A model generated the notes under the pieces. It was not told the origin of the DNA. It did not search any database and saw only the letters and a list, made by a program, of their open reading frames with translations. A stretch of 42,508 nucleotides of DNA from a virus, in the IMG/VR virus record IMGVR_UViG_3300036845_000159, positions 1 through 42,508 of that record; one strand, 5' to 3'. Positions 2,319 through 36,959 of the stretch are shown one piece after another (the first letter of the stretch is position 1; every line of letters starts with the position of its first letter). Position numbers and translations under genes: made by a program.

Positions 2319-2320
2319 AC

Positions 2321-2352: not shown

Positions 2353-2378
2353 CTTGGTTCCTTTCGCGATCCACTCGA

Positions 2379-3407: not shown

Positions 3408-3447
3408 TTGCGTGTTTCCTGAGTCAAAAACGGTTCAAGGCGTGAGC

Positions 3448-4371: not shown

Positions 4372-4384
4372 GTGTGCGGTTCTC

Positions 4385-6094: not shown

Positions 6095-6142
6095 GCCTAC
6101 ATGGTATACCGCCGGAGGTTGACGCGTCTAGGGCGCGTCAAA

Positions 6143-6166: not shown

Positions 6167-6171
6167 CGCCG

Positions 6172-8024: not shown

Positions 8025-8036
8025 GTTCACCTCTCG

Positions 8037-10375: not shown

Positions 10376-10386
10376 TTATGGGGGCG

Positions 10387-10415
10387 AGTATTTATGAAAC
10401 TGACGGACACGTCAA
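10387..10415 (-). promoter_or_regulatory. Leftward promoter overlapping a TGACG-N4-CGTCA palindrome
   Basis: The perfect palindrome TGACGGACACGTCA spans 10401-10414 in the 42-base gap between portal and cupin-like genes. Read leftward it gives TTGACG (10415-10410), a 17-bp spacer and AATACT (10392-10387), a good -35/-10 pair for sigma70. The start site would be near 10380, so a protein bound to the palindrome would block the polymerase. It is one of about ten copies of this palindrome. Confidence 0.65.
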
Positions 10416-10417
10416 GC

Positions 10418-15315: not shown

Positions 15316-15356
15316 TGACCGGGTTCGCATCTTATTGACGATTCCGTCAGTAGGAT
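15316..15356 (+). promoter_or_regulatory. Tandem operator/promoter: TGTGACC box and TGACG-N4-CGTCA palindrome
   Basis: CTGTGACCGGGTTCGCAT begins at 15314 and TGACGATTCCGTCA lies at 15336-15349, 20 bp further on. TAGGAT at 15351-15356 is a candidate -10. The same order of boxes with the same 20-bp step occurs at 36888-36929. The downstream leader also shares a 20-base stretch with that locus, so both genes are probably co-regulated. Confidence 0.6.
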
Positions 15357-16527: not shown

Positions 16528-16541
16528 TGACGGAGTCGTCA
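16528..16541 (+). promoter_or_regulatory. Palindrome TGACGGAGTCGTCA before a small operon
   Basis: The palindrome lies right after the stop of the short-form gene (16522). It is followed by GTTTTTAAC and a GAGGA ribosome site for the gene at 16563. TTTTAA at 16544 is only a weak -10 candidate, so here the site may be a pure operator or an internal promoter. Confidence 0.55.
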
Positions 16542-17242: not shown

Positions 17243-17283
17243 TGACGCGCGTCGCTACAGTTCCGCGAGTTCCGGGCGATAAT
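17243..17283 (+). promoter_or_regulatory. Promoter with TGACGCGCGTC box and GATAAT -10
   Basis: GAAACTGTGACGCGCGTC starts at 17237, and GATAAT (17278-17283) follows. The ATG of the next gene is only seven bases after the -10, so its transcript would be nearly leaderless. The same 18-base box occurs on the minus strand at 20451-20468. No good -35 hexamer is present, which suggests activation or a phage factor at the box. Confidence 0.55.
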
Positions 17284-18579: not shown

Positions 18580-18998
18580 AATGCGATATCTACACCGACG
18601 CCGAGCCCGTGGCGCTCCCAATGTCCAAGTTCGACTTGCAACGGCGCCGGGACGAGGCAATGCACGCCCACGTGGTCGGGCTCGCGCAAGATCAACTCGC
18701 GGCGCTCCGGGCAAAAATGCAACCGTGCCGCTCGCCGTACTGCGAATGCATGGTCGGCCAATGCACGTCCCCCGGTTTTTACGATGCGCGCGAATTTACG
18801 ATCAACACGGCGACCGGTGCTCAACTCGACGCGTGGGCCAACGCGCCGCGATCTATCGGGGTAGCGGACGCCGAAATGCACGCATTACTCCAAACGAATT
18901 TTTCACAAATTGAGACGCGCGTCACGGCTGCGCAAGTAGCGCGAGACCTAAACTCATTGCCCGATTGGTTCACCAATACAGCGAGGTACAACAAATGA
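18576..18998 (+). CDS. Hypothetical Cys-containing protein (140 aa)
   Basis: The product starts MKCDIYTDAEPVALPMSKFD, preceded by GCGAGGTG, the usual ribosome site of this phage. It holds a CRSPYCECMVGQC cluster near residue 50 that could bind zinc and a C-terminal helical half. No family is recognised. The stop overlaps the next ATG as ATGA. Confidence 0.62.
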   Translation: MKCDIYTDAEPVALPMSKFDLQRRRDEAMHAHVVGLAQDQLAALRAKMQPCRSPYCECMVGQCTSPGFYDAREFTINTATGAQLDAWANAPRSIGVADAEMHALLQTNFSQIETRVTAAQVARDLNSLPDWFTNTARYNK

Positions 18999-20415: not shown

Positions 20416-20576
20416 CAGGCTTGATACGGTCGAATCAATACCTCATTCCGTGACGCGCGTCACAGTTTCGCCCTATTTGTAGGCGTTATCTGACAGCATA
20501 GTGTGCGGCGTTCCCTGAATTAGTCCCGTTGCAATGCGAAAGTGACCTCGCCGTCAATACCGACGGTTTATTTCGC
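20416..20576. promoter_or_regulatory. Intergenic region between convergent operons with box and hairpin
   Basis: This gap holds the perfect palindrome TGACGCGCGTCA (20451-20462). Read leftward it belongs to the same 18-base box as at 17237. It also holds one copy of TTCCCTGAATTA (20511-20522) and a CCGTC/GACGG hairpin (20551-20566) followed by TTTATTT, a possible weak rightward terminator. A promoter here would transcribe against one of the convergent operons, so the palindrome may be an operator or roadblock site. Confidence 0.45.
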
Positions 20577-21144: not shown

Positions 21145-22026
21145 TCACCCCTTGGTTGGTGGATTGAGCATGCGAATATACGCGTCGGCGGCGAGGCGCG
21201 GGTCGGCTTGTTCAGCGAGCGAGATACCGTCGAGCGGCGCGGCGCCCGTGAGCGGCAAGCCCTTGCCGTCGTTCTTGTACGCCCCGAGCATTTTTAACAT
21301 CATGTCACGGGCTTGCTGTTTGTCGTATAGCTCAACCGTAATAACGCCGTCCTTGTCCTGTTTGATGTTCTTGATGCACTTGAGCGCGGCAGGCGATAGT
21401 TTCGTCGTGTCGGCAATGATCGTGCGCTCGATCCCGTTGCCAAAGCACGTGGGGCATGTAGGGTTCGGCGGCAATTGCCAGTCGTACCCAAAGCCGCCCG
21501 AGCACGTGGGCAACGTCATGCGCTCGCCCTTGGGAATTTTCCCGCCAACGGCGATCAGTGTCACTTGCGCGTTGTACGCGTCGAGCGCTTGCGCAAACTC
21601 GCCCGCGTCGCGCCATTGCATACCATAGGCCGTGCCGTTGCAGTGTCGGCAATTGTATTTTTGCACGCGCACGATTTCGTTTGTGTCGGTCGTCACGATG
21701 TCCGCGAGGTCGCGCAAAATATCGATAGCGCGAGCAATGCCGGCGGTCGCGAGACGGTCTTGGATTTCGGCCACGCGCTTGTTGACGTGGTCTCGTGCGA
21801 GCACGGCGGCGGCGCTCGACCATATCGAGCGGTACGCGGCACCCGGCGCTACATCGTGCGACGCCTTGTAAGCGCTGACGAGCGAGCGCGACTCAGCGTA
21901 GAACTGCGCGAACACGACCTCGCGGGGCGTGAGTTCACGTTCGCCCACCATGACCGGGAGCGGCACGCGCGGCAAGATTTCCACGGGCACAGCGGCCACG
22001 GTCGCGAGTTCGTTCATGCCCGCCAC
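21145..22026 (-). CDS. terS: Terminase small subunit
   Basis: The 293-residue protein begins with a DNA-binding-like part: LTPREVVFAQFYAESRSLVS (32-51), then SAYKASHDVAPGAAYRSIW and ARDHVNKRVAEIQDRL. This order of helices is typical of phage small terminases that recognise the packaging site. A zinc-binding insert follows (C126, C129, C175, C191, C194; YNCRHCNGTAYGMQWR and CPTCFGNGIE), a known variation of phage TerS. The start is GTG 22026 or ATG 22017. It is isolated from TerL by more than 7 kb and transcribed away from the AT-rich region. Confidence 0.82.
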   Translation of the reverse strand: MAGMNELATVAAVPVEILPRVPLPVMVGERELTPREVVFAQFYAESRSLVSAYKASHDVAPGAAYRSIWSSAAAVLARDHVNKRVAEIQDRLATAGIARAIDILRDLADIVTTDTNEIVRVQKYNCRHCNGTAYGMQWRDAGEFAQALDAYNAQVTLIAVGGKIPKGERMTLPTCSGGFGYDWQLPPNPTCPTCFGNGIERTIIADTTKLSPAALKCIKNIKQDKDGVITVELYDKQQARDMMLKMLGAYKNDGKGLPLTGAAPLDGISLAEQADPRLAADAYIRMLNPPTKG

Positions 22027-23442: not shown

Positions 23443-23487
23443 TGACGCCCGACACGCTTTGACGACCTCGTCAGGGCGTACTATGCT
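23443..23487 (+). promoter_or_regulatory. Promoter with both box types and TTGACG-17-TATGCT
   Basis: TGTGACGCCCGACAC begins at 23441 and the palindrome TGACGACCTCGTCA covers 23460-23473. TTGACG (23459-23464), a 17-bp spacer and TATGCT (23482-23487) form a good sigma70 promoter for the four small genes that follow. The palindrome overlaps the -35 and part of the spacer, as expected for a repressor site. Confidence 0.7.
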
Positions 23488-24379: not shown

Positions 24380-24408
24380 ATAGTGACCTAAACTGACGGA
24401 CTCGTCAA
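24380..24408 (-). promoter_or_regulatory. Leftward promoter TTGACG-17-CACTAT over a palindrome
   Basis: The palindrome TGACGGACTCGTCA (24394-24407) read leftward forms TTGACG (24408-24403), a 17-bp spacer and CACTAT (24385-24380). It would drive the 35-residue membrane peptide. A TGTGACCGAGTTCGCAT box at 24366-24382, like the one at 15315, lies on the other side of the palindrome. Confidence 0.62.
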
Positions 24409-24414
24409 TATTTG

Positions 24415-26841
24415 TCACTTTTGCGCGTTCAAATACATTTCGCGCACCATGAGCGGATTCGCCACGAGGCGCGACGAGTGCCCCGCCACGATGTACAGCG
24501 TTGGGCGCCCTCCCGTCGGCAAGTCCTGAGTAATACGCCCGTCAGGGAGTTGCGGGTGTCGCTCGTATCCCAACGTCGTGAGCATTTCCACGCGCTTGGA
24601 CCGGGACACGAACTTACCACGGCTCGATTGGCCCAAGAGTATGGCGAGGGCGTCGGAGCTAATCCAACCGCCTTTAAAGCCCGCCTTGCCGACGGCAATA
24701 GCCTCTTGGATATCTTGCTCGATCCCGCCCAACCCGGCGTTAATGGCCTCTTGCGTTGACGTGGTGATCGGTGCGCGCCGAGCACCCTTGGCAAAATTGT
24801 AGTGCTCGGGAATATCGTACGTGCGGAGGTAATGCAGAATGCTCGCGTTGCCGCCGCCCTCGAACCAATCGAACAAACGAATAAAGTACGCCTCGTCCAA
24901 CCCGTCGCGGGCCAAGTCGGCGAGCGATTGTTGCGCGGCGAACAGCGGGCATATACGGCGGTCCTCTTGCGTCTTGCGGATACCGTCCTTGTGATTGGTG
25001 TTAAAAATCATGTTGAAACAAACTTCGCGCGTGACTTGGTCAACGCCCTTTTTCTCGATTTCTTGGAACTGTTCCGTAATCATCGTCTTGAGCTTTTCCC
25101 ACGTCGCGGCATTTCCCTCAATCGTTTTTATTTCCTCAACCAGGATCATGAGCTTTCGATACAGATAGCCGTTGAAATGATTGTCCAAATTCGCGGCGCT
25201 CGCGCTATAGACGTAGTCGAGCCCGAGACAATATTGCATCACCTTGGTCAAGAACGATTTGCCGTTACCGGGTACACCTTGGATCAACAGCGCCCACGCG
25301 GCTTTGACGCCGAGGTTTTGCACGCACGCGGCCACGAACGACGTGTATATGACCGCGTCCTCGCCGTTGGGAAATAGCTTTTTTATGTGGTTGGTATACA
25401 AGCTCACGTCGCCCGGCGTCGCGACGACGAGCGGGTCGCGCCACGTGTTTATGTACTTGAGGCCGAGGCGTTCGCGCTCGGCGTTCTCAGGCTCGCGCGG
25501 GTCAAAGTATGTTCCATGCACTGTCGGAAACTCCACGAGTTGCGATTGCGTGAACGTGGACCAAGCCGACTTATCTATCGCATTGGTGATATCGACAATG
25601 AACGAGCGCCCACGGTATCGCTCGTCATTGTCGAACGGCTCGCGTTTAAGCGTGTGGCCGCTCGGGATCATAATTTGATTCATGTCTTGAACGTACAAGC
25701 AACCCTTGAACAAAATGCGTTGCGCGTCGCCCGTCAATATCTTGCCGTGTCCGGTCTCGGGTGCCGCAATCGGCATTGCATTAGGGACCGGCGGTATCTC
25801 AACGCCCGCGACGATTACCGGCGGGGGAGGGGGTACGAGGGACCCGACGAGGTGCGGGGGAGGCGGCGGGGGAATGAGAGAACTTGGCACGACTCCGGCA
25901 ACGGTGGGCGGGATATCGGCTTGCGCGGCTCGCTGCTTATAGTAGGTCGTTTGCCACGCGGCGGCCTTGGTGATTGTTCCGCGTAGATAGCCCTCGCGTT
26001 GCCACTTGGGCCGGTTGAGCGCGGAGCGTTCGCCGATAGCCAACATGCGATCACAATTGCCGCCGGTCCAAAATGCGAGGTGATTAAATAAGGCTTGGTC
26101 CGCTGAACTGCCGTCATAGTCTTTACCCGCTGATTGTGGAGGGAATGCGATTGCGAGGCGTTCGACGTTGCCCGCTAATAGGTCGGCCACGCTCGCCTTG
26201 CTGCCGAACAATGCGCCCGCTGATTTGCTCGCGACCATGCGCCGGATTAACTCGTCGTCGTCCGTGGGGCCGTCCCATTGCGGCGCGGGCTCAGTCGTCC
26301 AACCATCACTCGATAACTCGGCGCCGGGCGGGAAATACTGCGCGATCAAGTGCGGCAACATGTGCGTGGCGTCGAACGTTTCGTCGCCTTGCGCGTTGGT
26401 GCCGGTCACTCCGATGAACCGGAGTTCGGTGTAAAACTCTATCCCGAGTCCCGTGTGGCGCTTGCGATGCGCGGGAGCTTCGTTTAAGTAGCGGAAAAAA
26501 ATATGAATGCCGCGCCCCGATTGCGACACTTCGATATACGCCCCGTGGAACTTTCGGCATAGTTCCTGAGCAATTGGCGACCATGTTCCGTCGTCTTGCA
26601 ACGCTTTGTCTATATCTAGGACACCTACGCCGCAGCCTTTCCACAAAACAAATCCGGCACCGTACTCAGGGCCAAGAAATTTGGACCACGTTATAGCCAC
26701 CGTGCCGCGCATCCAATTAGCCGGATCGGTAGCGTCTATCGCGTGTAAATTTTCGGGGTGTACTGGAACCTTTCCTTGGCGGCGGTACACTATCCACTGG
26801 ACATTATTTTGAAGGGATTTAAGCACGCCGTAGGTACTCAA
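24415..26841 (-). CDS. Bifunctional primase-helicase (Prim-Pol plus SF3-type helicase)
   Basis: The 808-residue protein starts with a Prim-Pol-like domain: GVGVLDIDK (71-79) with two metal-binding Asp and VSQSGRGIHIFF (105-116). A helical middle follows (SSADQALFNHLAFWTGG), then a Pro-rich linker (about 322-356 with PPPPPP and PPPPP), and a C-terminal helicase with Walker A GVPGNGKS (522-529) and Walker B LMILVEE (564-570). This order resembles NrS-1-type primase-polymerases with a DUF5906 helicase. It would unwind and prime phage DNA for the polymerase at 34.6-36.9 kb. The start overlaps the end of an endonuclease VII-like gene by 23 bases. Confidence 0.87.
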   Translation of the reverse strand: MSTYGVLKSLQNNVQWIVYRRQGKVPVHPENLHAIDATDPANWMRGTVAITWSKFLGPEYGAGFVLWKGCGVGVLDIDKALQDDGTWSPIAQELCRKFHGAYIEVSQSGRGIHIFFRYLNEAPAHRKRHTGLGIEFYTELRFIGVTGTNAQGDETFDATHMLPHLIAQYFPPGAELSSDGWTTEPAPQWDGPTDDDELIRRMVASKSAGALFGSKASVADLLAGNVERLAIAFPPQSAGKDYDGSSADQALFNHLAFWTGGNCDRMLAIGERSALNRPKWQREGYLRGTITKAAAWQTTYYKQRAAQADIPPTVAGVVPSSLIPPPPPPHLVGSLVPPPPPVIVAGVEIPPVPNAMPIAAPETGHGKILTGDAQRILFKGCLYVQDMNQIMIPSGHTLKREPFDNDERYRGRSFIVDITNAIDKSAWSTFTQSQLVEFPTVHGTYFDPREPENAERERLGLKYINTWRDPLVVATPGDVSLYTNHIKKLFPNGEDAVIYTSFVAACVQNLGVKAAWALLIQGVPGNGKSFLTKVMQYCLGLDYVYSASAANLDNHFNGYLYRKLMILVEEIKTIEGNAATWEKLKTMITEQFQEIEKKGVDQVTREVCFNMIFNTNHKDGIRKTQEDRRICPLFAAQQSLADLARDGLDEAYFIRLFDWFEGGGNASILHYLRTYDIPEHYNFAKGARRAPITTSTQEAINAGLGGIEQDIQEAIAVGKAGFKGGWISSDALAILLGQSSRGKFVSRSKRVEMLTTLGYERHPQLPDGRITQDLPTGGRPTLYIVAGHSSRLVANPLMVREMYLNAQK

Positions 26842-27286
26842 TTGCTCTTAGCAATCCCGCCTCGTTATCCCCCAAACCTCCGATACAGACGTTGCAATGA
26901 TTACAAAGCCAACCTCTAAAGCGATTCGTTTCGTGGCAATGATCAAGAACCATTTTCTTGGGGGATTTTCCGCATAGCTCGCAAGTTTTCGGCTCGGGTC
27001 TGTTCGCGAGCGGCATTTTACGCCACTTTCTAGATTTATTCCTATGCGCCGGATCGTTTCGATATCCGCGTTGATATTTCTTTCGTGATGATTTGAACGC
27101 GTGCGCGTCCGTCCCATACCATTGGGTCAAATGCCTTTCTCGCGCGCACTCAACGCATCTTGTGCAACTAACGTATCTGGCAGCCGTATGCCCATTACAA
27201 CAGGGTTCTCCCAAATCGTACGTAGTATCTCCGCGCGCCTTTGCGGCGGCGCGAATATCGTGCTTTTGTTTTCGAGTCAGCTTCAC
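26819..27286 (-). CDS. Recombination endonuclease VII-like homing endonuclease (copy 2)
   Basis: GTG 27286 starts a 155-residue protein. The N-terminal zinc unit has EPCCNGHTAAR and CTRCVEC. The C-terminal endonuclease VII domain has CELCGKSPKKMVLDHCHETN, RFRGWLCNHCN and a final GLLRAIEYL helix. Conserved Cys pairs and DHCH residues are present, so it is probably active. The gene is visibly more A/T-rich than its neighbours. It ends inside the first codons of the primase-helicase gene, the same pattern as the other two copies. Confidence 0.87.
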   Translation of the reverse strand: MKLTRKQKHDIRAAAKARGDTTYDLGEPCCNGHTAARYVSCTRCVECARERHLTQWYGTDAHAFKSSRKKYQRGYRNDPAHRNKSRKWRKMPLANRPEPKTCELCGKSPKKMVLDHCHETNRFRGWLCNHCNVCIGGLGDNEAGLLRAIEYLRRA

Positions 27287-27291
27287 GTGGA

Positions 27292-27570
27292 CTAACCCGT
27301 GATCAGTTTTGCGGCGGCGTCCTTTTGGGCTTGAGGCGCGGTCTTGGCAATGCGATTCCCTGCGGCCAATGCCTTGGCGAGTATGCCGTGCTGATACGTG
27401 GCAATCGCCTCGCGCACAATGGCGTCGTGCAATCGCGCCATGGTCTTAAAGTAATACGACACGGTGCCCTCGGCGCAACCGGCGCGCGTGGCAACGGCGA
27501 TTCGCGTCACGGCGGGGAAACCCTTACGCGATGCGATTTGCACGGCGGCGTCTAAAATAGCTTGCTTCAT
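27292..27570 (-). CDS. TetR-like helix-turn-helix regulator, short (92 aa)
   Basis: The protein starts MKQAILDAAVQIASRKGFPA and continues VTRIAVATRAGCAEGTVSYYF, the classic TetR helix-turn-helix with the YYF end and a following LHDAIVREAI helix. Full TetR proteins are near 190-210 residues; this one has only the DNA-binding domain and a short C-terminal extension, so it lacks most of the ligand-binding domain. A CGAGGT site precedes ATG 27570. A TGACGAGTCAGTCA palindrome lies 15 bases further upstream (27585-27598), suggesting autoregulation. TetR-type repressors bind palindromes of about this length, making it the best candidate for binding the repeated TGACG palindromes. Binding is inferred. 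Confidence 0.72.
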   Translation of the reverse strand: MKQAILDAAVQIASRKGFPAVTRIAVATRAGCAEGTVSYYFKTMARLHDAIVREAIATYQHGILAKALAAGNRIAKTAPQAQKDAAAKLITG

Positions 27571-27584
27571 ACTAATACCTCGGT

Positions 27585-27598
27585 TGACTGACTCGTCA
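27585..27598 (-). promoter_or_regulatory. Imperfect TGACG palindrome before the TetR-like gene
   Basis: Read leftward, TGACGAGTCAGTCA starts at the TGA stop of the VRR-NUC gene and lies just before the ribosome site and ATG of the TetR-like gene. The right arm is AGTCA instead of CGTCA. A weaker site is common for autoregulation. CTGACG with TATTAG 16 bp further could be a promoter, but it would leave almost no leader. Confidence 0.55.
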
Positions 27599-27967
27599 GG
27601 GTAGTTGATTCTCGTTTGAAATAAAAGCCGCGTATCCGCCGTCGGTGTTCACCATGTCCAACCAACGCTTTTGGGCGACCTCGTGTTCGTCGTTCGGGTT
27701 ATAGACCCAATCCTCGTCCTTGCATTCTATAGAAACAAATTGCGCAATTACTTTCCCGACCATGTCGGGGGTGATCACGACCGCACGCCACCCGACGAGG
27801 TCGTGCGACTTGACCACGTCGCCCAATTTCTTGGAATCATTGCCGAGGCCATAGCGGACCCAACGCCCGGTCGCGTCCTTGAACGCGCCGCGATTGTTGC
27901 GCCACATGCGCCAGCCCAAGCGCGCGAGCGCGAGGCGGACGAGCGATTGTACGCGGCCCTCGCTCAT
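27596..27967 (-). CDS. VRR-NUC domain nuclease
   Basis: From ATG 27967 the protein is 123 residues and matches phage VRR-NUC nucleases: LGWRMWRNNRGAF, RWVRYGLGNDS, SHDLVGWRAV with the catalytic Asp, ITPDMVGKV, VSIECK (Glu-x-Lys of the PD-(D/E)XK fold) and AQKRWLDMV. Such enzymes process branched or flapped DNA in phage replication or recombination. The ATG overlaps the stop of the membrane protein gene (ATGA). It is encoded next to the SF2 helicase, which fits a shared role. Confidence 0.86.
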   Translation of the reverse strand: MSEGRVQSLVRLALARLGWRMWRNNRGAFKDATGRWVRYGLGNDSKKLGDVVKSHDLVGWRAVVITPDMVGKVIAQFVSIECKDEDWVYNPNDEHEVAQKRWLDMVNTDGGYAAFISNENQLP

Positions 27968-28236
27968 GCTCCGTACGCCCATTTGGTTACAAATATCGAG
28001 AACACCGAGCCCAAGCCGCCGCCGAGCACACACCCGGCCATGCTCCAACGGTCGCGGTTCTTGTCGTCCTCCACGAACTTGGCGCCCGCGTAAAAGTGGA
28101 ACCCCGATATAACCATGTCGGTACCGAGGGTCCAACCATAATGGCCTTGGTTGTACGCGCGGCCATTCGCCACGACGAGCGCAAAGGAAATAAATTCCAT
28201 GGCAAACCAAAAAGCAAAGCGGCGGTAATTATTCAT
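27964..28236 (-). CDS. Small membrane protein (90 aa)
   Basis: The protein starts MNNYRRFAFWFAMEFISFAL and has a second hydrophobic segment near the C-terminus (AGCVLGGGLGSVFSIFVTKW), with a charged FVEDDKNRDRW between them. Two membrane helices give a hairpin topology. It is coupled to its neighbours by ATGA on both sides. The role beside DNA enzymes is unknown. Confidence 0.65.
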   Translation of the reverse strand: MNNYRRFAFWFAMEFISFALVVANGRAYNQGHYGWTLGTDMVISGFHFYAGAKFVEDDKNRDRWSMAGCVLGGGLGSVFSIFVTKWAYGA

Positions 28237-28391
28237 GTGTCAAACCTGTCGTGAGGCCAAACCGGATCGTGTTTGCAGCGAGTGCAAAACGTCACTAGCT
28301 CCCGGTCGAACGGGCGAGGATACCGATAAACTCGGTGGGGTTTATGCCCAAAAATTCTACAGAGTAGTTGCTTAAGCGACTTTAACCGCAT
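28233..28391 (-). CDS. Small zinc-ribbon-like protein (52 aa)
   Basis: ATG 28391 lies inside the end of the SF2 helicase gene (20-base overlap) and the TGA overlaps the next ATG. The product has LLCRIFGHKPHRV and VTFCTRCKHDPVW. This C-x-F-GH...FCxRC form is a common small phage zinc protein of unknown function. The opposite strand also has a CxxC-containing frame, but the overlaps and known form favour this strand. Confidence 0.68.
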   Translation of the reverse strand: MRLKSLKQLLCRIFGHKPHRVYRYPRPFDRELVTFCTRCKHDPVWPHDRFDT

Positions 28392-30078
28392 TATATACGC
28401 CTTGCTTGGTGAGTATCGCTTGGATTCGCTCGCGGAGCGCGTCGGCGTCCTGAGCGTTCAATGCTTGGGCGCTCAACACGTCAGTGCCGAACGTCAGATA
28501 AAAACGCTTTTGCGCCTCACGGTGCCCGTGGTCGAGTTGTTCTAGCCAACCCATATACAACGCCATGACCTCGCGCAATTCTTGCTGCGATTGCTGGCGG
28601 GAGTAGTGCGCGTGCTTGACCTTGCCGTGCGCGACCGTCACACCGAACGGCAACACGGGCGGCCCGTCTACCCGCTTTTTCTCGGCCTCCAACGCGCGTA
28701 GCACCTCGGGGTCAAGCTCGCACATATCGCCTTCCACTTGCGCGGGCGTGGAGCGCGCGGCGGGGAGCGGCACGGGGGCACCGCAATAGGGGCACTTGGT
28801 CAAATATCGTTCGTACGGTCGGAGACATTCGAGGCACGAGCGCAACGGTATGCCATCCGACGATTTCGATTTTCGCTCGCGGCGGTCGAGCGTATACTCG
28901 CGCGGCGTGTCGGGGAGCCCGTGGCGTAGCCAATTCTGTACGTGGTCGATCAATATGGCGCTAGGTTTGGGACTCGCGGCAATGTGGGCTTTGCGTTGCT
29001 CGTCCGTGAGGTCGTTCCACACGGCGGTCAACTCGTCGCTGATCAGCAAGCGCAACGCGCGCCCGGTTTGCTGTGCAAATAGCTGAAACGACGCCGTGGG
29101 CCGGGCCATGCTGACGACCTCCACGGCGGGCACGTCCACGCCCTCGCCGAGCACGTCCACGGACACCAATTGCAAAATTCGCCGCTCGCGAAACTGGCGC
29201 ATGAGGGCACCGCGCACCTCAAGTGGTGTTTCCCCCGTGATGATTTCTGCGGGGACACCCGCCGCGCGATACGCCGCCGCAATCTCGGTCGCGCTCTCAA
29301 TGTCAACGGCAAAGGTAATCCCGAGCTTTCCCGCCGCGAATTTCAAATACGTGGCGACCACGTCGCCCACAATGGTGGGGCTCGCGTGGACCGCCGCGCG
29401 TACTTCGTCCTGGTTGAACTCACCCGAGGCGCCGGTATGCACGGCGTCGAGATTCACGTCACTCGTGGGGCATATGAGGCGGTACGGGCAAAGCATGCCC
29501 ATTTCAATTAGGAATTTTGCATTGGGTCCGATCACGAGCGCGTCGGCGAGGCCGTCGGCGTTGCGGCCCAACCCTTTGTTGTCACCTCGTAGCGCGTGCG
29601 CGGTCAGGAACAAGCCGCGCGCATTGGGGAACATATCAACGGCGGTTCCCCACTTATTATTTGCGAGCGTATGGTGTCCTTCGTCCACGATTGTGAGTTG
29701 TGTTTCGTCCATCCATCGTTCACGCGTTTTTACTTTGCGAATTAGGGTATCGACTCCGGCCACACGTGTGGAAGATCGCGGATTGTATTGGCTAAACCCG
29801 TGCGTATCCATTTCAAGCGCCACAATTTGCCGAATAATTGTGGACGGTGCGATTATCGAGTGCGGAACGTGCTCGCGATTTAGCATGAGTGCGAACTGAC
29901 TAACAAGTTCCTGACGGTGAGCGATAGCGATAGATGGGACGTTAAAACCTTTGACTATGTGCCCCATTACAACAGTTTTTCCCGACCCCGTGGCCGCTGT
30001 CGCAATGACGTTGCGAGCGCCCGCATTCCACGCTGAATAAATGTCCTGCACAAATTCGGTTTGATAATTACGAAGCAT
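28372..30078 (-). CDS. SF2 DNA helicase (DEAD/DEAH-like)
   Basis: The 568-residue protein has the SF2 motifs: a Q-like RNYQ start, ATGSGKT (29-35), IAHRQELVSQ (motif Ia), TIVDEGHH (129-136, a DEGH box), LFLTAHALR (motif III as TAH), FAVDIESA, DVLGEGVDVPAVEVV and QQTGRALR (motif VI). A zinc unit near residue 430-455 has CLECLRPYERYLTKCPYCG. Similar SSL2/UvsW-like phage helicases act in replication fork processing and recombination. The start overlaps the end of an endonuclease VII gene by 11 bases. Confidence 0.9.
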   Translation of the reverse strand: MLRNYQTEFVQDIYSAWNAGARNVIATAATGSGKTVVMGHIVKGFNVPSIAIAHRQELVSQFALMLNREHVPHSIIAPSTIIRQIVALEMDTHGFSQYNPRSSTRVAGVDTLIRKVKTRERWMDETQLTIVDEGHHTLANNKWGTAVDMFPNARGLFLTAHALRGDNKGLGRNADGLADALVIGPNAKFLIEMGMLCPYRLICPTSDVNLDAVHTGASGEFNQDEVRAAVHASPTIVGDVVATYLKFAAGKLGITFAVDIESATEIAAAYRAAGVPAEIITGETPLEVRGALMRQFRERRILQLVSVDVLGEGVDVPAVEVVSMARPTASFQLFAQQTGRALRLLISDELTAVWNDLTDEQRKAHIAASPKPSAILIDHVQNWLRHGLPDTPREYTLDRRERKSKSSDGIPLRSCLECLRPYERYLTKCPYCGAPVPLPAARSTPAQVEGDMCELDPEVLRALEAEKKRVDGPPVLPFGVTVAHGKVKHAHYSRQQSQQELREVMALYMGWLEQLDHGHREAQKRFYLTFGTDVLSAQALNAQDADALRERIQAILTKQGVYNAVKVA

Positions 30079-30502
30079 GCACAGCCTTCGCCAGATATTG
30101 AACGGCCTTTAAAAGCCCGTCGATATTGTCCCCGAATTTGCCCAGTCCCGTATTACATTTGGCACATAACCAACCTCGGAATTTTCCGGTTACGTGGCAA
30201 TGATCCAATGCAAGCACGCGCCCAATAGAAACCGCGCCGCAACACTCGCACGTGGTCGGACGAGGTCGCGTAGGCTCGGGATACTTATTGAAAATGCGAG
30301 CAAATCTACGGCGCCCCTCGGGATTGTTGCGGTTCCAGCGGTAGCCGTCCTCGGTATTACAGCGGGTGCAATAGCAACTAGACGTTAAACGCGCGGCGAC
30401 GTGACCTCGCGGACAAGGTTTTCCGGTGTAGTATGTTCGGCGATTTTTGGCAATAGCCGATTTGCGCGATTTGCAAAGGTCCCGATTAGTCGGTTTCAAC
30501 AC
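30068..30502 (-). CDS. Recombination endonuclease VII-like homing endonuclease (copy 3)
   Basis: GTG 30502 starts a 144-residue protein. The N-terminal zinc unit is YYTGKPCPRGHVAAR with CYCTRC. The nuclease has CECCGAVSIGRVLALDHCHV, GKFRGWLCAKCNTGLGKFGD and a final GLLKAVQYL helix. The active-site DHCH and zinc Cys pairs are intact. It starts inside the end of the HNH gene and ends inside the start of the SF2 helicase gene. Confidence 0.87.
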   Translation of the reverse strand: MLKPTNRDLCKSRKSAIAKNRRTYYTGKPCPRGHVAARLTSSCYCTRCNTEDGYRWNRNNPEGRRRFARIFNKYPEPTRPRPTTCECCGAVSIGRVLALDHCHVTGKFRGWLCAKCNTGLGKFGDNIDGLLKAVQYLAKAVHAS

Positions 30503-30804
30503 GGGAACATTTCCAAGGCTCGGCCCTCGCGTCGGGTGGCGTACCGCCTTTCGGCGTGGTGGCGCGCATCATATGCTAAATGACAGTGTTGACACAATGC
30601 CCGGAGGTTTGAACGCTCGACGTTGGCGGGATTGTGGTCAAGGTGCGCAGTCTGTATAAAGGCGACCGTGCCGTGGACCGGGTGGAACCAACGGTGCCGG
30701 GCGCCGCAATGCTGGCAAGCCCACCCGGCGGCCTCGCGTACCTCGAATGAGATACGCTCCCAATTTGTCGGGTATCGGGAGCGCCAGCGTTGAAAGCGTG
30801 TCAT
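30496..30804 (-). CDS. HNH endonuclease
   Basis: ATG 30804 gives 102 residues. The HNH core is CQHCGARHRW, then AHLDHNPANVERSNLRALCQ and HCHLAYDARHH, with the two CxxC pairs and the D-H and N residues of the fold. This type is a free-standing HNH enzyme, a homing or general nuclease. It is the first gene of the leftward DNA-metabolism operon and is divergent from the gene at 30876 across a palindrome. Confidence 0.85.
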   Translation of the reverse strand: MTRFQRWRSRYPTNWERISFEVREAAGWACQHCGARHRWFHPVHGTVAFIQTAHLDHNPANVERSNLRALCQHCHLAYDARHHAERRYATRREGRALEMFPC

Positions 30805-30816
30805 GCGGACGAGTAT

Positions 30817-30830
30817 TGACGACTCCGTCA
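30817..30830. promoter_or_regulatory. Palindrome TGACGACTCCGTCA between divergent operons
   Basis: The site lies in the 71-bp gap between the leftward HNH gene (start 30804) and the rightward gene at 30876. TTTATGCA follows it rightward as a weak -10 candidate. A repressor here could control both directions at once: the leftward DNA-metabolism operon and the rightward replication operon. Confidence 0.65.
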
Positions 30831-30875
30831 GTTTATGCAAGCATGCGTCCCACTTTCCATACGAGGTGCAAAATT

Positions 30876-31733
30876 ATGAAAGTAATGTTCGAGGTCGATA
30901 CGGGCAACGTTGCCGAAACGCAATTGATTGCAAATTTTTTAATCGACGCCGCCGATCTATCGGTCGCGCAAGCCAAGACGGCCGCCGAGACACCAAGACT
31001 CGTGGAAACCGGCACGCTTGCAACCAGCCCCTACAATTTCACCGCCGGTTCACCCGAGCGTGCCGCGTTCAGCGAGCCCAAGCCCTCGAACGTTGTACCG
31101 ATCAAACCCGAGCCCGCCGCGCCCCCGGTTCCCGGTGCCGTGCCGACCGAGCCTGAGTTCGACGCGAACGGCATGCAATGGGACGCCCGCATACATTCAG
31201 GCAACAAAGCCAAGACCATTGGCGGCGCATGGAAAAACCGCCGTGGAGTGGCCGAGGCCGACCGCCTCGCCGTTGAGGCCACGTTGCCGCGCAAAGCGCC
31301 CACGGTGCCCGCCACGAATGCGTTGCCGCCCCCGCCGCCGGGTGCATTGCCGCCGCCCCCGCCGCCGACTCCCGAGCAAATGGGCGTGACGCGGGTCGCG
31401 GGTGTCGTGATCCCGCCGGGCGCGTCACTCGCTGACGCCGTCACCGCTCTGAAAACGCCGCCCCCGCCGCCGGGTGGGGTCCTCACGCCGCCGGAGGACG
31501 ACGAGGCCGACTTGGAACCGGACGCCCCGCCAATGCCGCCGGTACCGCCCGCCGCGCCCGCTATCGATTTCCCCACGCTCATGGTGAAAGTGTCGGAGGC
31601 CATGGCCGCCAACCTTATGACCGTGGAGTCGGTACAGGCGAAAATTAAGCCCCTCGGTATCGACACGCTGTTCGCGTTGAGTGGCCGCGACGACCTCGTC
31701 GTGCCCGCCGCCAAGGCGTTGGGGTTTGCATGA
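30876..31733 (+). CDS. Conserved phage protein with Pro-rich linker, linked to DUF2800/SSB operon
   Basis: ATG 30876 has an ideal GAGGTG site; longer frames have none. The 285-residue protein contains FDANGMQWDARIHSGNKAKT and GGAWKNRRGV, a motif of an uncharacterised phage family usually encoded near SSB-like genes. A long Pro-rich part (runs of five to six Pro, about 148-225) follows, then a C-terminal helical unit with FPTLMVKVSEAMAANLMT. It may tether replication proteins. It is the first gene of the rightward replication operon. Confidence 0.72.
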   Translation: MKVMFEVDTGNVAETQLIANFLIDAADLSVAQAKTAAETPRLVETGTLATSPYNFTAGSPERAAFSEPKPSNVVPIKPEPAAPPVPGAVPTEPEFDANGMQWDARIHSGNKAKTIGGAWKNRRGVAEADRLAVEATLPRKAPTVPATNALPPPPPGALPPPPPPTPEQMGVTRVAGVVIPPGASLADAVTALKTPPPPPGGVLTPPEDDEADLEPDAPPMPPVPPAAPAIDFPTLMVKVSEAMAANLMTVESVQAKIKPLGIDTLFALSGRDDLVVPAAKALGFA

Positions 31734-31936
31734 GCGGCCATAAGAACGCGGGCGATACCTGGGACGTAACCGGCAGTAGCGTATCGGAATGCTCGCTCGT
31801 GGTGCTGCAAGACATTCGCGACGAACTTAAACGCTTGAACGCCGTGTTACATTGCACAAATTTCCTAGCGATTCCGCGCAAACTCGAATCGATTCGACGC
31901 AACACGGCAAAGCCGCGCAAGCGTGTGCGCAAATGA
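31730..31936 (+). CDS. Small hypothetical protein (68 aa)
   Basis: It starts at ATGA with the previous gene and ends at ATGA with the next. It includes SVSECSLVVLQDIRDELKRL and a basic C-terminus ending PRKRVRK. Similar short proteins are common in this part of phage replication operons. The basic tail suggests DNA contact. The function is unknown. Confidence 0.62.
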   Translation: MSGHKNAGDTWDVTGSSVSECSLVVLQDIRDELKRLNAVLHCTNFLAIPRKLESIRRNTAKPRKRVRK

Positions 31937-32475
31937 AACGTACCGCCATGATCAGTGCGGACGAGGTGTACCGATACGGGCTTGGCCGCCAATGGAATTT
32001 TGAGGCCAAGCCCGTGGTGGACCCCAAGACCAAGGCCGAAACGCCGGGGCGCCTCAAGTGCCTATTGTGGCTCATGTTCAACCCGAGCACGGCGGACGCC
32101 GACCGGGACGACAACACAATCCGCAAGTGCGTCAAGTTTTCCGCCGCGTGGGGTTTCGACGCCATGCTCGTGGGCAACCTGTACGCGTTCCGCACACCAT
32201 TCCCCGAGGTGCTAAAGAAATTCAACGGCGACCGCGTGGGGCCGGAGAACGACGCGCGCATCAAGGAAATGTCGAGCATTTGCCCCATGGTCGTGTTGGC
32301 GTGGGGAACCCACGAACTTGCACGGCCTCGCGGCATTGAGGTCTCGCGCATTCTCGCCGAGGTGCCCAACCTAAAAGTTTGCCTCGGGCTCACCAAGAAC
32401 GGGTCGCCCAAACACCCGCTTTATATTTCCGACGATACAAAACCCATACGCGTGGGCTCGGTGAACGGAGCATGA
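31933..32475 (+). CDS. DUF1643 family protein
   Basis: The 180-residue protein matches DUF1643: LLWLMFNPSTADADRDDNTI, then FSAAWGFDAMLVGNLYAFRT, ICPMVVLAWG and a C-terminal HPLYISDDTKPI. The family is frequent in phages and bacteria and of unknown biochemical role, perhaps nucleotide-related. It is coupled to both neighbours by ATGA. Confidence 0.85.
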   Translation: MKRTAMISADEVYRYGLGRQWNFEAKPVVDPKTKAETPGRLKCLLWLMFNPSTADADRDDNTIRKCVKFSAAWGFDAMLVGNLYAFRTPFPEVLKKFNGDRVGPENDARIKEMSSICPMVVLAWGTHELARPRGIEVSRILAEVPNLKVCLGLTKNGSPKHPLYISDDTKPIRVGSVNGA

Positions 32476-33593
32476 GCGCCCGCGAGCATGCGCCGATAGC
32501 GCCGTCGAAACTCTATCGCATTGTCCCGTGTGCGGGCTCCGTCGCGTTGGAGGCACCGTTCGCCGACAAGCCGCAAACCGAGGCCGCCGCCGAGGGTGAG
32601 GCCGGGCATTGGGCCGCGTGGCTGTTCGCGCTCGCCGCGCAATGCACGGGCGACGGCGTCGTACCGGGCGTCGGTGACAAAGCTCCCAACGGCGTGGCGA
32701 TTGATCAAGACATGCTCGACGGCGCCGAAATGTACGTGGACGCGTTGGAGGGGTTCAAAGGGACCGCCGAAACTCGCGTCGAGATTCCACGCGTCCACGC
32801 AAAGTGTTTCGGCACGCCCGACTTTTGGCAATGGAACCCGGCCACGAAAACGTTGCGGGTGACCGATTACAAATACGGGCGTCGATACGTCGAGGTGTTC
32901 GAGAACTATCAACTAGCAGCGTACGCCGCCGGGCTCATTGATCAATTGGGGTTGAACGATCAGGACGTAATTGTCGAGTTCTTAATCGTGCAACCGCGTT
33001 GCTATCATCCCGACGGCCCGGTGCGCGAGTGGCGCACGAGCGGGTCGCGCTTGCGCTCGCTCGTCAACGTATGCGCGAACGCCGCCGAGGATGCGCTCGG
33101 CCCGAACCCCAAGACCAAGACCGGGTCGCATTGCATTGACTGTTCCGCCGCCGCCGTGTGCAAGACCTTGCACATTGCCGGGCAATCGGTGCTTGAGTTC
33201 TCCGGGTCGGTCGAGGCCATGACATGCAACGCGGACGAGGTCGGCGTGCGATTGTCCCAAATCAATCAGGGTTTGGACTTGCTCAAGGCGTTGGCCGGGG
33301 GGTTGGAGGAACAAGCACTCGGAATGATTCGTCAGGGCAAGAGCGTGACGAATTGGGGCATTGGGCACACGCAACCCCGGCAGACTTGGAACGCTCCCGT
33401 AACCACGGTCAAGGCGTTGGGCTCGCTGTATGGTGTGGCGCTGACCGAGGAAACTTTCGCCATGACTCCAAAGCAAGCAATCAAGCGCAAAATTCCCGAG
33501 GCGGTTATCGGCAAGGTCTCGCACGTGCCGAACGGTACAGCAAAACTCGTGCCAGATTCGACCGTTCGGACTAGAAAGATTTTCCAAAAGTAG
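32472..33593 (+). CDS. PD-(D/E)XK nuclease-like protein, DUF2800 family
   Basis: The start at 32472 gives 373 residues. The N-terminus SKLYRIVPCAGSVALEAPFA and AAEGEAGHWAAW are typical of DUF2800, with a Cys and EG..H motif of PD-(D/E)XK nucleases. The catalytic part is GTPDFWQW...LRVTDYKYG followed by ENYQLAAYAAGL. Two Cys-rich positions (HCIDCSAAAVC) suggest an iron-sulfur or zinc site as in Cas4/AddB-like nucleases. These enzymes are encoded next to DUF2815 and polymerase genes in phages, as here. Exonuclease function is inferred. Confidence 0.85.
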   Translation: MSAREHAPIAPSKLYRIVPCAGSVALEAPFADKPQTEAAAEGEAGHWAAWLFALAAQCTGDGVVPGVGDKAPNGVAIDQDMLDGAEMYVDALEGFKGTAETRVEIPRVHAKCFGTPDFWQWNPATKTLRVTDYKYGRRYVEVFENYQLAAYAAGLIDQLGLNDQDVIVEFLIVQPRCYHPDGPVREWRTSGSRLRSLVNVCANAAEDALGPNPKTKTGSHCIDCSAAAVCKTLHIAGQSVLEFSGSVEAMTCNADEVGVRLSQINQGLDLLKALAGGLEEQALGMIRQGKSVTNWGIGHTQPRQTWNAPVTTVKALGSLYGVALTEETFAMTPKQAIKRKIPEAVIGKVSHVPNGTAKLVPDSTVRTRKIFQK

Positions 33594-33598
33594 TATAC

Positions 33599-33612
33599 TG
33601 ACGAGTCCGTCA
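33599..33612. promoter_or_regulatory. Palindrome TGACGAGTCCGTCA with adjoining TATACT
   Basis: The site lies between the DUF2800 gene and the ATG at 33630, immediately before the GAGGTG site. TATACT overlaps its left edge (33594-33599) and could be a rightward -10, placing the palindrome over the start of transcription. No matching -35 was seen. Confidence 0.58.
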
Positions 33613-33629
33613 ACAATGAGGTGCAAAAT

Positions 33630-34568
33630 ATGAGTGATTCTAAGGACGTTTTATTGCCGGTCGGTCGTATCGTGTCAGGCAATCTGTACACGGCGAGCGA
33701 CAAGGACGCGGACGGCAAGCCGCGCTTGATCAAGAACGGCCCCAAGGCCGGACAACCCACGAGCCAATATTATTTTGGTCTCGCCATTCCCAAGACGCCG
33801 GGCGCAACCCATTTCGGACAAGAGCCGTGGGGCGCGCAGTTTTGGGCGCTCGGTAACCACGCGTTCCCGAAAATCGCAGAATCCCCGACCTTTTCGTGGA
33901 AAGTGATCGACGGCGATTCGGCGATTCCGAACACCAAGGGCAACGCGCCCAAGGATCAGACCGGATACCCCGGCCATTGGATCGTGTCCTTGACCCGCAA
34001 CGGCGAAATGGGACCGTTCAAAATCACCAACGGCGACGGGTCGGCATATTTGCTCGACCCGAACGTGGTACAGGCTGGCGACTTGGTCGAGGTCCACGTC
34101 ACCATACTCGGGAACGACTCGACGCAACGGCCCGGTATCTACGTGAACGCGAATATTGTTGCGTTCGTCGGATACTCCCCGCTTGGCCGCATTGCGCAAG
34201 GCGTCGATCCCAAGAGTTTGGGACTCGGCAAGAGTGCGCGCCCCTCCACGGTTGCCGCTCCGATTGGCGGTTCAACCGCGCCCGCTCCGGCGGCTCCGGT
34301 TCCGGGTGCCGCCGCTCCTGCCCCGCCGCTCCCGCCCGCGCTCCCCGGTGCCGCTCCCCCGGTGCCCGGCGCCGCAATACCCGGCCCCGTGGGCGTTGTT
34401 CCGGCCCCGGCGTATCTCGCCGTCCCGCCGACGCCGCCCGCCCCGCCAGCGCCGCCAGCGGCGGCCAAGGTGCTCAAGGGCGCGTTCGCCGCGTATTCGT
34501 ATGAAGCTGTTATTGGTCAGGGGTGGACAAACGCCTCCTTAATCGCTGCCGGATATCTGGACCCGTAA
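33630..34568 (+). CDS. Single-stranded DNA-binding-like protein, DUF2815
   Basis: ATG 33630 has an ideal GAGGTG. The 312-residue protein has an N-terminal OB-fold-like part (VGRIVSGNLYTASDKDADGK, GLAIPKTPGATHF, and VQAGDLVEVHVTILGND) matching DUF2815, a T7 gp2.5-like single-stranded DNA-binding group. From about 205 to 285 it is very rich in Pro and Ala. The C-terminal YEAVIGQGWTNASLIAAGYL is a small conserved end. It would protect single strands for the polymerase encoded next. Confidence 0.8.
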   Translation: MSDSKDVLLPVGRIVSGNLYTASDKDADGKPRLIKNGPKAGQPTSQYYFGLAIPKTPGATHFGQEPWGAQFWALGNHAFPKIAESPTFSWKVIDGDSAIPNTKGNAPKDQTGYPGHWIVSLTRNGEMGPFKITNGDGSAYLLDPNVVQAGDLVEVHVTILGNDSTQRPGIYVNANIVAFVGYSPLGRIAQGVDPKSLGLGKSARPSTVAAPIGGSTAPAPAAPVPGAAAPAPPLPPALPGAAPPVPGAAIPGPVGVVPAPAYLAVPPTPPAPPAPPAAAKVLKGAFAAYSYEAVIGQGWTNASLIAAGYLDP

Positions 34569-34611
34569 GTGACTCGGGAGGAAGCAAAGAAATTAGGGCG
34601 CCCTCGCTACA

Positions 34612-35241
34612 ATGGGGGGCGCCCTTGTCGGCGCGGACACATCGCAGCATTTTACATCGAAGCCCATGCATTACGGTGAACGATTCAAAGTCGCGCACGG
34701 GTATAGCACCGCGTGGCCGCCAATTGATTTTGAGACGTATTCTGAAAGTGGGTTCGTATGGGATGCCGACGAGCAAAAGTGGGAATCCTTGCCGGGGCAC
34801 TCTAATCAATCGCGCGGGATCAAAGCCGTGGGCGTCAGGAACTACGTCGAGCACCCTTCGTTTGAGGTTCTGTGCATGGCATACGATTTGCTCGACGGAG
34901 TCGGCCCCGCCTTGTGGACGCCGACGCGCCCGGAGCCCACGCGGCTACTTGACCACGTGCGGCGCGGGTTGATCCTGTCCGCTTGGAATGTCGAATTTGA
35001 ATGGACCGTGTGGAACTGCTTTTGCGTGCCGCGCTTAGGATGGCCGCCGCTCGCGCTCGAACTGCTCCGGTGCGACATGAGCAAGGCCGCCGCTAACGCG
35101 TACCCGCGCGGGCTCGCGAATGCGGGCGAGGCGTTGCACCTCGTCAACCAAAAGGACCCGGACGGCGACCGCCTTATACGTAAGCTCACGGTGCCAAAAA
35201 ATCCGACCAAGAAAAATCCGGGGTTGCGTTGGCTTCCATAA
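34612..35241 (+). CDS. DNA polymerase family A, N-terminal exonuclease fragment
   Basis: This frame holds the start of a 3'-5' exonuclease: PPIDFETYSESGF has motif I (DxE) and ILSAWNVEFEWTVWN has motif II (N...FE). The sequence continues through LIRKLTVPKNPTKKNPGLRW and then meets a stop at 35239. The matching C-terminal part continues in the -1 frame from about 35233, and motif III is there. So as written this product lacks exonuclease motif III and all polymerase motifs. The start is uncertain: ATG 34612 or ATG 34666, with GGGAGG at 34576-34581 rather far upstream. Confidence 0.78.
   Translation: MGGALVGADTSQHFTSKPMHYGERFKVAHGYSTAWPPIDFETYSESGFVWDADEQKWESLPGHSNQSRGIKAVGVRNYVEHPSFEVLCMAYDLLDGVGPALWTPTRPEPTRLLDHVRRGLILSAWNVEFEWTVWNCFCVPRLGWPPLALELLRCDMSKAAANAYPRGLANAGEALHLVNQKDPDGDRLIRKLTVPKNPTKKNPGLRWLP
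35196..35202 (+). other. Slippery-like A AAA AAT in the polymerase frame change region
   Basis: The zero-frame codons here are CCA AAA AAT, giving a heptamer A AAA AAT of the form used for -1 ribosomal frameshifting. The -1 frame is open from 35184 to 36890. A second, weaker site (G AAA AAT) lies at 35211-35217. The polymerase sequence seems to stay in the first frame until about 35232, so the site may be coincidental and a one-base deletion near 35233-35252 is the main alternative. Confidence 0.4.
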
Positions 35242-36890
35242 TTACATTCGACCGTGCGCCCGAGGATTTCGCAAAGCTGTATGGCTATTGCGTGCGCGAC
35301 GTTATAACCGAGCTTGAGGCGTGCTCGCGGCTCCCTGACTTGACGCCGCGCGAGTTCGCCATTTGGCAAACGGACCAAAAGATAAATTTGCGCGGCATGT
35401 ACATCGACCTCGTGGCCGTGGAAAACTGCCTCGCGATTGTTGAGCAAGCGACCGAGAAATACAACGCCGAGTTGCGCGGCCTCACGGCCAACCACGTACA
35501 GAAATCGAGCGAGGTTGCCGCAACGCTCCGTTGGTTCGCCTCGCGCGGGTTGTATCTCGACAATTTGGACGAGGATACGGTATACGAAACGCTTGAACGC
35601 AAGGACTTGCCGCGCGATATCATGCGAGTGGTCCGCATTCGGCAATTGCTGGCGTTCGGCTCCGTAAAGAAATTGTACGCCATGCGCTCCCAACGTTCAC
35701 GCGACGGGCGGTTGCGCAATCAGTACGCGTACCACGCTGCGCACACGAGCCTATGGAACGGGCAAAACGTGCAAATGGCGAACCTGTACTCGGGCAAGCT
35801 CAAGACACCCGCCGAGGTTGAGCAAGCGTTGGCCTGTATCGCCACGCGGCACTTGCCGACGGTCGAGGCGTGTTTCGGCGACGCGCTCGAACTCGTGGCC
35901 GATTGCTTGCGCTCAATGGTCATTGCGGCGCCGGGCTGCGACTTGATCAGCGCGGACTATTCCGCAATTCAAGCCGTCGTCCTCGCGTGCCTTGCGGGCG
36001 AACAATGGCAAATCGACGTGTTCAAAACACACGGCAAGATTTACGAGGCGACCGCCGCCGGGATCACGGGCAAGACCCTCGAATACTATTTGCAGTATCG
36101 CAAGGAAAACGGACGGCACCACCCCGACCGCCAAACAATGGGGAAAATTCCCACGCTCGCCTCGGGGTTCGGCGCATGGGTTGGCGGGTGGAAACGGTTT
36201 GGCGCTGACGTGTACGGCGACGACGCGGCAATCAAGGAAATGGTACTGCGCACCCGCGCGAAGATTCCAAACACCGTCGAATTTTGGGGCGGCCAAACCC
36301 GCAACAAGTTCAACCGCGCCCCGGACGGCTCGTATGATCCCGAGCGCGACGAGTGTTTCGGGTTGGAGGGCGCCGCCGTCCGGGCGATTGAAAACCCCGG
36401 CGTGGCGTTCGGATATCGTGGAATCACCTATTGCGTGCAACACGACATTTTGTACTGTCAACCGCCGACCGACGGCGCCCCGCTTCAATACCACGAGCCC
36501 CGATTGGCCCCGAGCCAACGCGCGTATGCCAGCGCTTGGGAAAAGGAAATCACCTACGTTGGTTGGAACTCGAACGCCAAAAAGGGCGCGAGCGGGTGGC
36601 AACGCATGAAATTGTACGGCGGCGTGCTGACCCAAAACGTTGTCGCCAAGGTCGCCCGCGAGTATCAGGCCAACGCAATGGTGGACTGTGAGGCCGCCGG
36701 GTACCCGTGGGTCATGCACACGCACGACGAGGGCGTCGCCGAGGTCCCCGAGGGGTTCGGCTCGACCGCCGCGTACCTCGAAATCGTCAACCGGCGCCCC
36801 GCTTGGGCCGTGCTACCGGACGGCTCCCCGTGGCCGGTCAAGGCGCCCGACGCATGGCGCGAGAAACGATACGGGAAATGGGAAACGTGA
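35229..36890 (+). CDS. DNA polymerase family A, C-terminal polymerase part
   Basis: From TTG 35229 the frame encodes 553 residues; the frame is open from 35184. Exonuclease motif III is LYGYCVRDV (Asp24). Polymerase motif A is SADYSAIQ (Asp243), where the usual steric-gate Glu is Gln248. The O-helix region is QTMGKIPTLASGFGAW, and motif C is HTHDEG (His499, Asp500, Glu501). Length and motifs match phage family A polymerases such as those with DYSAIEA. The Gln is a single-base change from Glu. Its stop codon overlaps the palindrome at 36888. Confidence 0.86.
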   Translation: MASIITFDRAPEDFAKLYGYCVRDVITELEACSRLPDLTPREFAIWQTDQKINLRGMYIDLVAVENCLAIVEQATEKYNAELRGLTANHVQKSSEVAATLRWFASRGLYLDNLDEDTVYETLERKDLPRDIMRVVRIRQLLAFGSVKKLYAMRSQRSRDGRLRNQYAYHAAHTSLWNGQNVQMANLYSGKLKTPAEVEQALACIATRHLPTVEACFGDALELVADCLRSMVIAAPGCDLISADYSAIQAVVLACLAGEQWQIDVFKTHGKIYEATAAGITGKTLEYYLQYRKENGRHHPDRQTMGKIPTLASGFGAWVGGWKRFGADVYGDDAAIKEMVLRTRAKIPNTVEFWGGQTRNKFNRAPDGSYDPERDECFGLEGAAVRAIENPGVAFGYRGITYCVQHDILYCQPPTDGAPLQYHEPRLAPSQRAYASAWEKEITYVGWNSNAKKGASGWQRMKLYGGVLTQNVVAKVAREYQANAMVDCEAAGYPWVMHTHDEGVAEVPEGFGSTAAYLEIVNRRPAWAVLPDGSPWPVKAPDAWREKRYGKWET

Positions 36891-36929
36891 CGCGCGTCAC
36901 ATAAAACTGACGGTTCCGTCAGGCATAAT
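36888..36929 (+). promoter_or_regulatory. Tandem palindromes and CATAAT before the UvrD-like helicase
   Basis: TGACGCGCGTCA (36888-36899, starting at the polymerase stop) and TGACGGTTCCGTCA (36908-36921) have starts 20 bp apart, about two helix turns. CATAAT follows at 36924-36929 as a -10. The leader then shares GGTCAAACAACGGAGCAACG (36937-36956) with the one at 15366. This is the best example of the two-box layout. Confidence 0.68.
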
Positions 36930-36959
36930 AGCTCTAGGTCAAACAACGGAGCAACGCAA

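Follow-up and report, generated by a model that had tools for sequence, protein, structure and literature searches.

The TetR-like protein and its gene neighborhood

The DNA under study (the window) spans an entire IMG/VR virus record, 42,508 bp in length. A short tetR-like gene lies on its minus strand inside a helicase–nuclease–primase region, a placement likewise seen in relatives, and the elements that define the locus are as follows.

27292..27570, minus strand: tetR-like gene, 92 aa, phrog_8723 family, ATG start
27448..27504, minus strand: helix-turn-helix, residues 23–41 (AlphaFold2 model and family alignments)
27448..27471, minus strand: recognition helix, residues 34–41 (AlphaFold2 model and family alignments)
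27596..27967, minus strand: nuclease-type gene (phrog_93), immediately upstream of tetR and in its operon
28372..30078, minus strand: DNA helicase (phrog_16), upstream of tetR in the same operon
24415..26826, minus strand: DNA primase (phrog_1829), downstream of tetR in the same operon
33630..34568, plus strand: Gp2.5-like ssDNA-binding/annealing protein (SSB; phrog_7011), putative regulon member

A family-profile scan of the window reveals one TetR_N protein in the 42.5-kb record, as the sequence-only reading had stated in calling it the only TetR-type protein present. Residues 5–50 match Pfam TetR_N (PF00440; E=2.6e-9, 37.2 bits against a cut-off of 24), and the phrog_8723 profile match spans residues 2–87 (E=1.8e-23). 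That reading had also described a 92-residue protein that retains the helix-turn-helix and lacks the ligand domain, and both points hold: the open reading frame at 27570–27292 (minus strand) carries TetR_N as its only Pfam match, with none for a ligand-binding or C-terminal domain, and therefore no ligand would be expected.

The AlphaFold2 monomer is confident (mean pLDDT 92.3, pTM 0.81) and comprises helices 2–16, 23–30, 34–41, 44–57, 61–69, 73–76, and 80–91. Matches to PDB structures cover mainly helices 1–4, which superpose on TetR DNA-binding domains, including the N-terminal helices of BetI, AcrR, EbrR, and EilR, over ~58–64 residues with a TM of ~0.6 on the query. The full-length fold is matched only by phage proteins, three of them with a TM of ~0.9. 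Canonical TetR repressors reach ~200 aa in total and carry a C-terminal ligand-binding and dimerisation domain, in place of which the phage protein has a phage-specific segment of ~30 residues resembling no TetR ligand domain. The protein is classed as a TetR_N-domain protein rather than a canonical TetR regulator, and its profile match together with its full-length compact fold places it in phrog_8723.

The genome itself is mosaic, with a replication module (24415–38432) like that of Jedunavirus, CP-T1, and SppYZU01, and a portal region (352–13881) like that of unrelated Aeromonas and Pseudomonas phages. A direct repeat of 262 bases (92% identical; 14833–15094 and 16212–16473) marks a recent gene duplication in a region of small genes, and tandem repeats of ~320 bases (41154–42239) lie within gene 40260–42404.

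A compact phage family

The sequence-only reading had regarded the protein as a truncated TetR, a description that the family contradicts, as the short form is the norm, with 92–112 aa in most members. Each of the 17 members scanned matches phrog_8723 and TetR_N, with no hit to any TetR C-terminal family. At 92 aa, the protein has the usual full length of a compact family that is widespread among phages; a truncated pseudogene or broken TetR is rejected, with length, C-terminal helices, and fold kept across the family.

With the window protein as query, tblastn retrieves 57 phage records from GenBank; with a relative as query it retrieves 105. Of the GenBank phages with relatives, 21 were read for sites, and the window was added to them. 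An IMG/VR search with the window protein returned no relative, and no near DNA relative of the window was found among GenBank phages. Two alignments of the family (A1 and A2) diverged too much to serve in pattern scans, and single-protein scans yielded only 9 loci. The family is present throughout Klebsiella Jedunavirus, and the ‘putative TetR transcriptional regulator’ of this group, of Vibrio phages CP-T1 and 138, and of Iodobacter phage PhiPLPE belongs to the same phrog_8723 family. The common neighbors of tetR in relatives are genes for a helicase, a nuclease or methyltransferase, and a primase. A previous account of phage tetR genes notes them only as co-opted cellular regulators and gives no operator or regulon (PMC3391216).

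Several family members depart from their annotation or from the common architecture. Relatives of 144–167 aa in Scuro (21424–21924), SppYZU01 (38065–38565), and G005 (26832–27257) form a tandem variant, in which an extra degenerate TetR-type helix-turn-helix precedes the main copy. In Pectobacterium phage PEAT2 the gene (14201–14479) is intact yet absent from the GenBank annotation, and several other records list tetR merely as hypothetical.

Palindromic sites in the window

The palindrome TGACG-N4-CGTCA occurs in 8 perfect copies, against 0.15–0.18 expected in Markov sequences; CTGACNNGTCAG, the motif tested first, is not enriched. All nine copies (the 8 perfect ones and the copy at tetR) are intergenic, although intergenic DNA makes up only 13% of window positions, a figure derived from our own gene calls (87% coding), from which at least one small gene (23522) is missing. 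The candidate operators, given without strand, are listed below.

27585..27598: operator at tetR, TGACTGACTCGTCA, one mismatch; 14 bp from the ATG, overlapping the stop codon of the upstream nuclease gene
30817..30830: operator TGACGACTCCGTCA; divergent region between two replication operons
33599..33612: operator TGACGAGTCCGTCA; 17 bp ahead of the gene for the Gp2.5-like SSB/annealing protein
24394..24407: operator TGACGGACTCGTCA; just past primase, 43 bp before a small gene at 24350–24243 (minus strand)
23460..23473: operator TGACGACCTCGTCA; textbook TTGACG -17- TATGCT (23482–23487)
36908..36921: operator TGACGGTTCCGTCA; 38 bp before the helicase gene at 36960, with CATAAT 2 bp downstream
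15336..15349: operator TGACGATTCCGTCA; 38 bp before 15388 (plus strand)
16528..16541: operator TGACGGAGTCGTCA; 21 bp before 16563 (plus strand)
10401..10414: operator TGACGGACACGTCA; 25 bp before 10375 (minus strand; phrog_4786)
20543..20556: possible weak operator TGACCTCGCCGTCA, one mismatch; intergenic, no obvious gene served

The imperfect copy that the earlier reading had placed just upstream of the tetR start is indeed present (TGACTGACTCGTCA). A lone copy with one mismatch is not significant, with 2–3 expected per genome; its position is significant because relatives also have an operator before tetR.

A second palindrome, GACGCGCGTC, lies at 17244–17253, 18914–18923, 20452–20461, and 36889–36898. 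It often reads TGACGCGCGTCA, with the same TGACG half-sites at N2 spacing, and GACGCGCGTCAC with at most one mismatch gives 11 matches in the window against 1.3 expected. One copy of this second palindrome sits 10 bp upstream of the 36908 operator.

Promoter geometry of the sites

Across phages, 76 site–gene pairs were collected in which the site lies 30–62 bp from the start codon. A T precedes the left half-site, generating TTGAC, in 67 of the 76 gene-facing pairs, and TAnnnT stands exactly 17 bp from this half-site in 33 of the 76, compared with 0–7 at other offsets. In most phages the palindrome thereby overlaps the −35 hexamer and half the spacer of a predicted sigma70-type promoter, and a bound protein should therefore exclude RNA polymerase.

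The window displays the same arrangement. AnnnT occurs at the matching offset in 4 of the 5 gene-facing TTGAC sites (23460 plus, 24394 minus, 30817 plus, and 10401 minus; background 4%). Specifically, the 30817 site facing the plus strand reads TTGACG -17- AAGCAT (30839–30844) ahead of an ATG at 30876, and the minus-strand readings of 24394 and 10401 are TTGACG -17- CACTAT and TTGACG -17- AATACT, respectively. The 23460 site is followed 48 bp on by the ATG at 23522, which opens the small frame missed by the gene calls. The −35 geometry is absent at 16528, 33599, and 27585, where 14–21 bp separate operator and start codon and the operator sits downstream of the promoter, ahead of the ribosome-binding site.

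This geometry bears on two alternatives. The palindrome could be a mere strong −35 element, or another DNA signal such as packaging or methylation, unrelated to TetR; its left half does coincide with the −35 hexamer, but the second half and the N6 spacing between TGAC and GTCA are conserved and unneeded by a promoter, and the motif is missing from TetR-free phages with the same replication module, which makes this the least credible of the readings considered. An activator that acts from the same sites and brings RNA polymerase to promoters of the middle or late phase is unlikely, albeit the most plausible of the alternatives. It would suit the sites at 10401, 15336, and 16528, which precede late or small-operon genes, and some TetR-type proteins do activate (PDB 7amt is labelled LuxR with activation DNA). 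Nevertheless, the site falls on the −35 hexamer of promoters whose good TTGAC and 17-bp spacer make an activator unnecessary, and a protein sitting over this hexamer should exclude sigma70 region 4. Moreover, operators before the protein’s own gene and before replication genes better suit feedback repression.

Co-occurrence of protein and site across phages

In de novo palindrome searches, TGAC-N6-GTCA ranks first or close to first in KsaM-C1, MEW1, AAM22, PEi21, CP-T1, and Scuro, with strong enrichment also in PEAT2 and Geezett, and N6 alone among the spacings is enriched. Intergenic counts range from 1 to 13 in 11 phages that share the same helix type (window included), compared with 0 in 11 phages with other helix types; members of the latter kind, such as PD0307 and VP16T with their PPA-type helices, and others, lack the operator. 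Correspondingly, the recognition-helix start xG[TSIL][VI] is present in 11 of 11 site-bearing phages and 2 of 13 others (Fisher P=3e-5). In the protein tree, the phages with both motif and matching helix fall almost into a single clade; helix–site covariation therefore represents one or few events and is weak as independent evidence. The stronger evidence for the protein–site link is provided by a blind scan and by TetR-free controls.

The blind scan searched IMG/VR with TTGACG-N4-CGTCA-N9-TANNNT only, and 50 of the records hit were then searched for the protein family and for all motif copies. The protein is encoded in 21 of 21 records with at least three copies and in 4 of 29 with fewer (P=4e-10), the latter comprising 3 of 7 two-copy and 1 of 22 one-copy records. 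What the sequence-only reading had offered as mere co-occurrence thus gains a statistical footing, with binding itself predicted, and its proposal that phages with the motif also encode the protein is borne out in records picked by motif alone. Relatives with palindromes and no protein were sought, and among the 50 records none was found at three or more copies; the four two-copy records without the protein may be chance hits or fragments.

The controls behave in the same manner. Intergenic sites are absent from all five phages without the protein, of which 9NA, Carvaje, and PM-CJR have the same replication module and two Aeromonas phages the same portal. P106B was dropped as a TetR-free control: it encodes a divergent member with the helix THGAIQYHF, and it has no intergenic sites.

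The distribution also argues against a host regulator reading the sites, for example the TetR-family protein RutR of E. coli. The RutR operator, TTGACCANNTGGTCAA, is similar, with TTGAC half-sites and the same N6 spacing, and the site copies before tetR in enterobacterial phages read TTGACCA...CCGTCAA; position 6 of the RutR box is C, where most phage sites have G. However, phages of one host genus differ, with sites in MEW1 and none in Carvaje (Klebsiella), in MR14 and none in Psp6 (Pseudomonas), and in CP-T1 and none in VP16T and 1.009.O (Vibrio), and the protein is encoded in every one of the multi-copy records. Host control is accordingly very improbable. RutR resembles the phage protein in its TetR-type domain, with a weak NCBIfam match of 21 bits, but differs in its length of ~200 aa and in having a domain that binds pyrimidines (PDB entry 6z1b, RutR with uracil).

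The predicted operator also recurs at fixed genes. It precedes tetR in 11 of 11 group phages (within 3 mismatches of the 12-base consensus) and in 18 of 20 blind-set loci (at most 2 mismatches), mostly 39–50 bp from the start codon; the tetR-proximal copy deviates from the perfect palindrome in the window, as in most group phages, and is perfect in some blind-set members. A site before the SSB gene is found in 10 of 11 group phages, compared with 0 of 4 control phages whose SSB was found. Together, these sequence statistics establish a candidate operator with its promoter geometry, its linkage to the protein family, and its place before tetR.

Other-helix phages yield no convincing alternative palindrome except in SFCi1 (GTTAC-GTAAC) and PY6 (GTAGCGC-N4-GCGCTAC), and these may be terminators or something else. 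In Pseudoalteromonas phage PY6, the five intergenic copies (7108, 8015, 12383, 19993, and 28189) are either terminators or the operator of its PPA-type TetR relative. In Shewanella phage SppYZU01, TGAC and GTCA words are almost absent, perhaps through restriction-site avoidance, and 0.0 TGAC-N6-GTCA pairs are expected; the phage keeps two perfect operators, at the SSB and post-primase positions.

Proposed role as an early shut-off repressor

The arrangement is best explained by a compact, ligand-independent TetR-type repressor that would act, in a self-limiting manner, on early and replication promoters, a reading to which we assign a probability of about 0.72. The protein would be produced from the helicase–nuclease–tetR–primase operon, bind TGAC-N6-GTCA (best as TGACG-N4-CGTCA), presumably as a dimer, and keep host RNA polymerase off about nine promoters of the phage. 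Since an operator precedes tetR, the protein would limit itself; since tetR sits in the replication operon, levels of the protein should climb alongside those of the replication proteins, whereupon it would close early promoters, its own among them, and the imperfect copy would let tetR escape longest. With the SSB gene and both divergent replication operons in the putative regulon, the most likely job is thus to turn off early and replication transcription on accumulation. From the patterns above we infer a dimer, direct binding, repression rather than activation, timing, and ligand absence. The term ‘master regulator’, used in the sequence-only reading, is fair insofar as about nine putative promoters are concerned, and the position of the relatives’ site over the −35 hexamer points to repression as the form of that regulation.

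A CI-like repressor keeping a prophage silent would suit the many operators across the genome, which resemble prophage repressor systems, and CP-T1 is recorded as an induced lysogen. This role is improbable, given that the family occurs throughout Klebsiella Jedunavirus, that Geezett is described as virulent (PMC8638582), that tetR lies within a replication operon and not in an immunity region of its own, and that no integrase was found among the window proteins scanned, which are part of the full set.

The proposed repressor shares palindromic operators and putative autoregulation with canonical TetR repressors; a palindromic operator at the regulator’s own promoter, a feature of that family, is predicted for it from sequence. 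Lambda Cro and mycobacteriophage L5 gp71, the latter with many stoperators, are small phage repressors that act at several genome sites. The likeness to Cro lies in the proposed role of early shut-off and in several operators overlapping core promoters, but the fold is different: fold and profile are those of TetR_N, with no Cro/XRE fold or homology. L5 gp71 differs in its oriented stoperators, as opposed to the palindromic, promoter-embedded operators predicted here. The open-licence literature, text search included, yielded no description of the operator, an absence that is weak evidence of novelty.

Implications for the phage family

On balance we favor a wider picture in which the mini-TetR family and its TGAC-N6-GTCA operator form a module moved between phages of differing virion types and hosts, with the operator serving also as −35 hexamer at many promoters, so as to provide a general early shut-off switch in a large group of 40–50 kb phages; other helix types would read other operators. 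A gene listed as ‘TetR regulator’ or ‘hypothetical’ in more than 100 GenBank phages, including many Klebsiella phages studied for therapy, thereby gains a predicted operator, regulon, and promoter map, and promoters are supplied for phages with an undescribed transcription programme. Within the compact phage TetR family, the operator alone predicts the presence of the regulator, which would represent a minimal, ligand-free TetR scaffold of ~90 residues.
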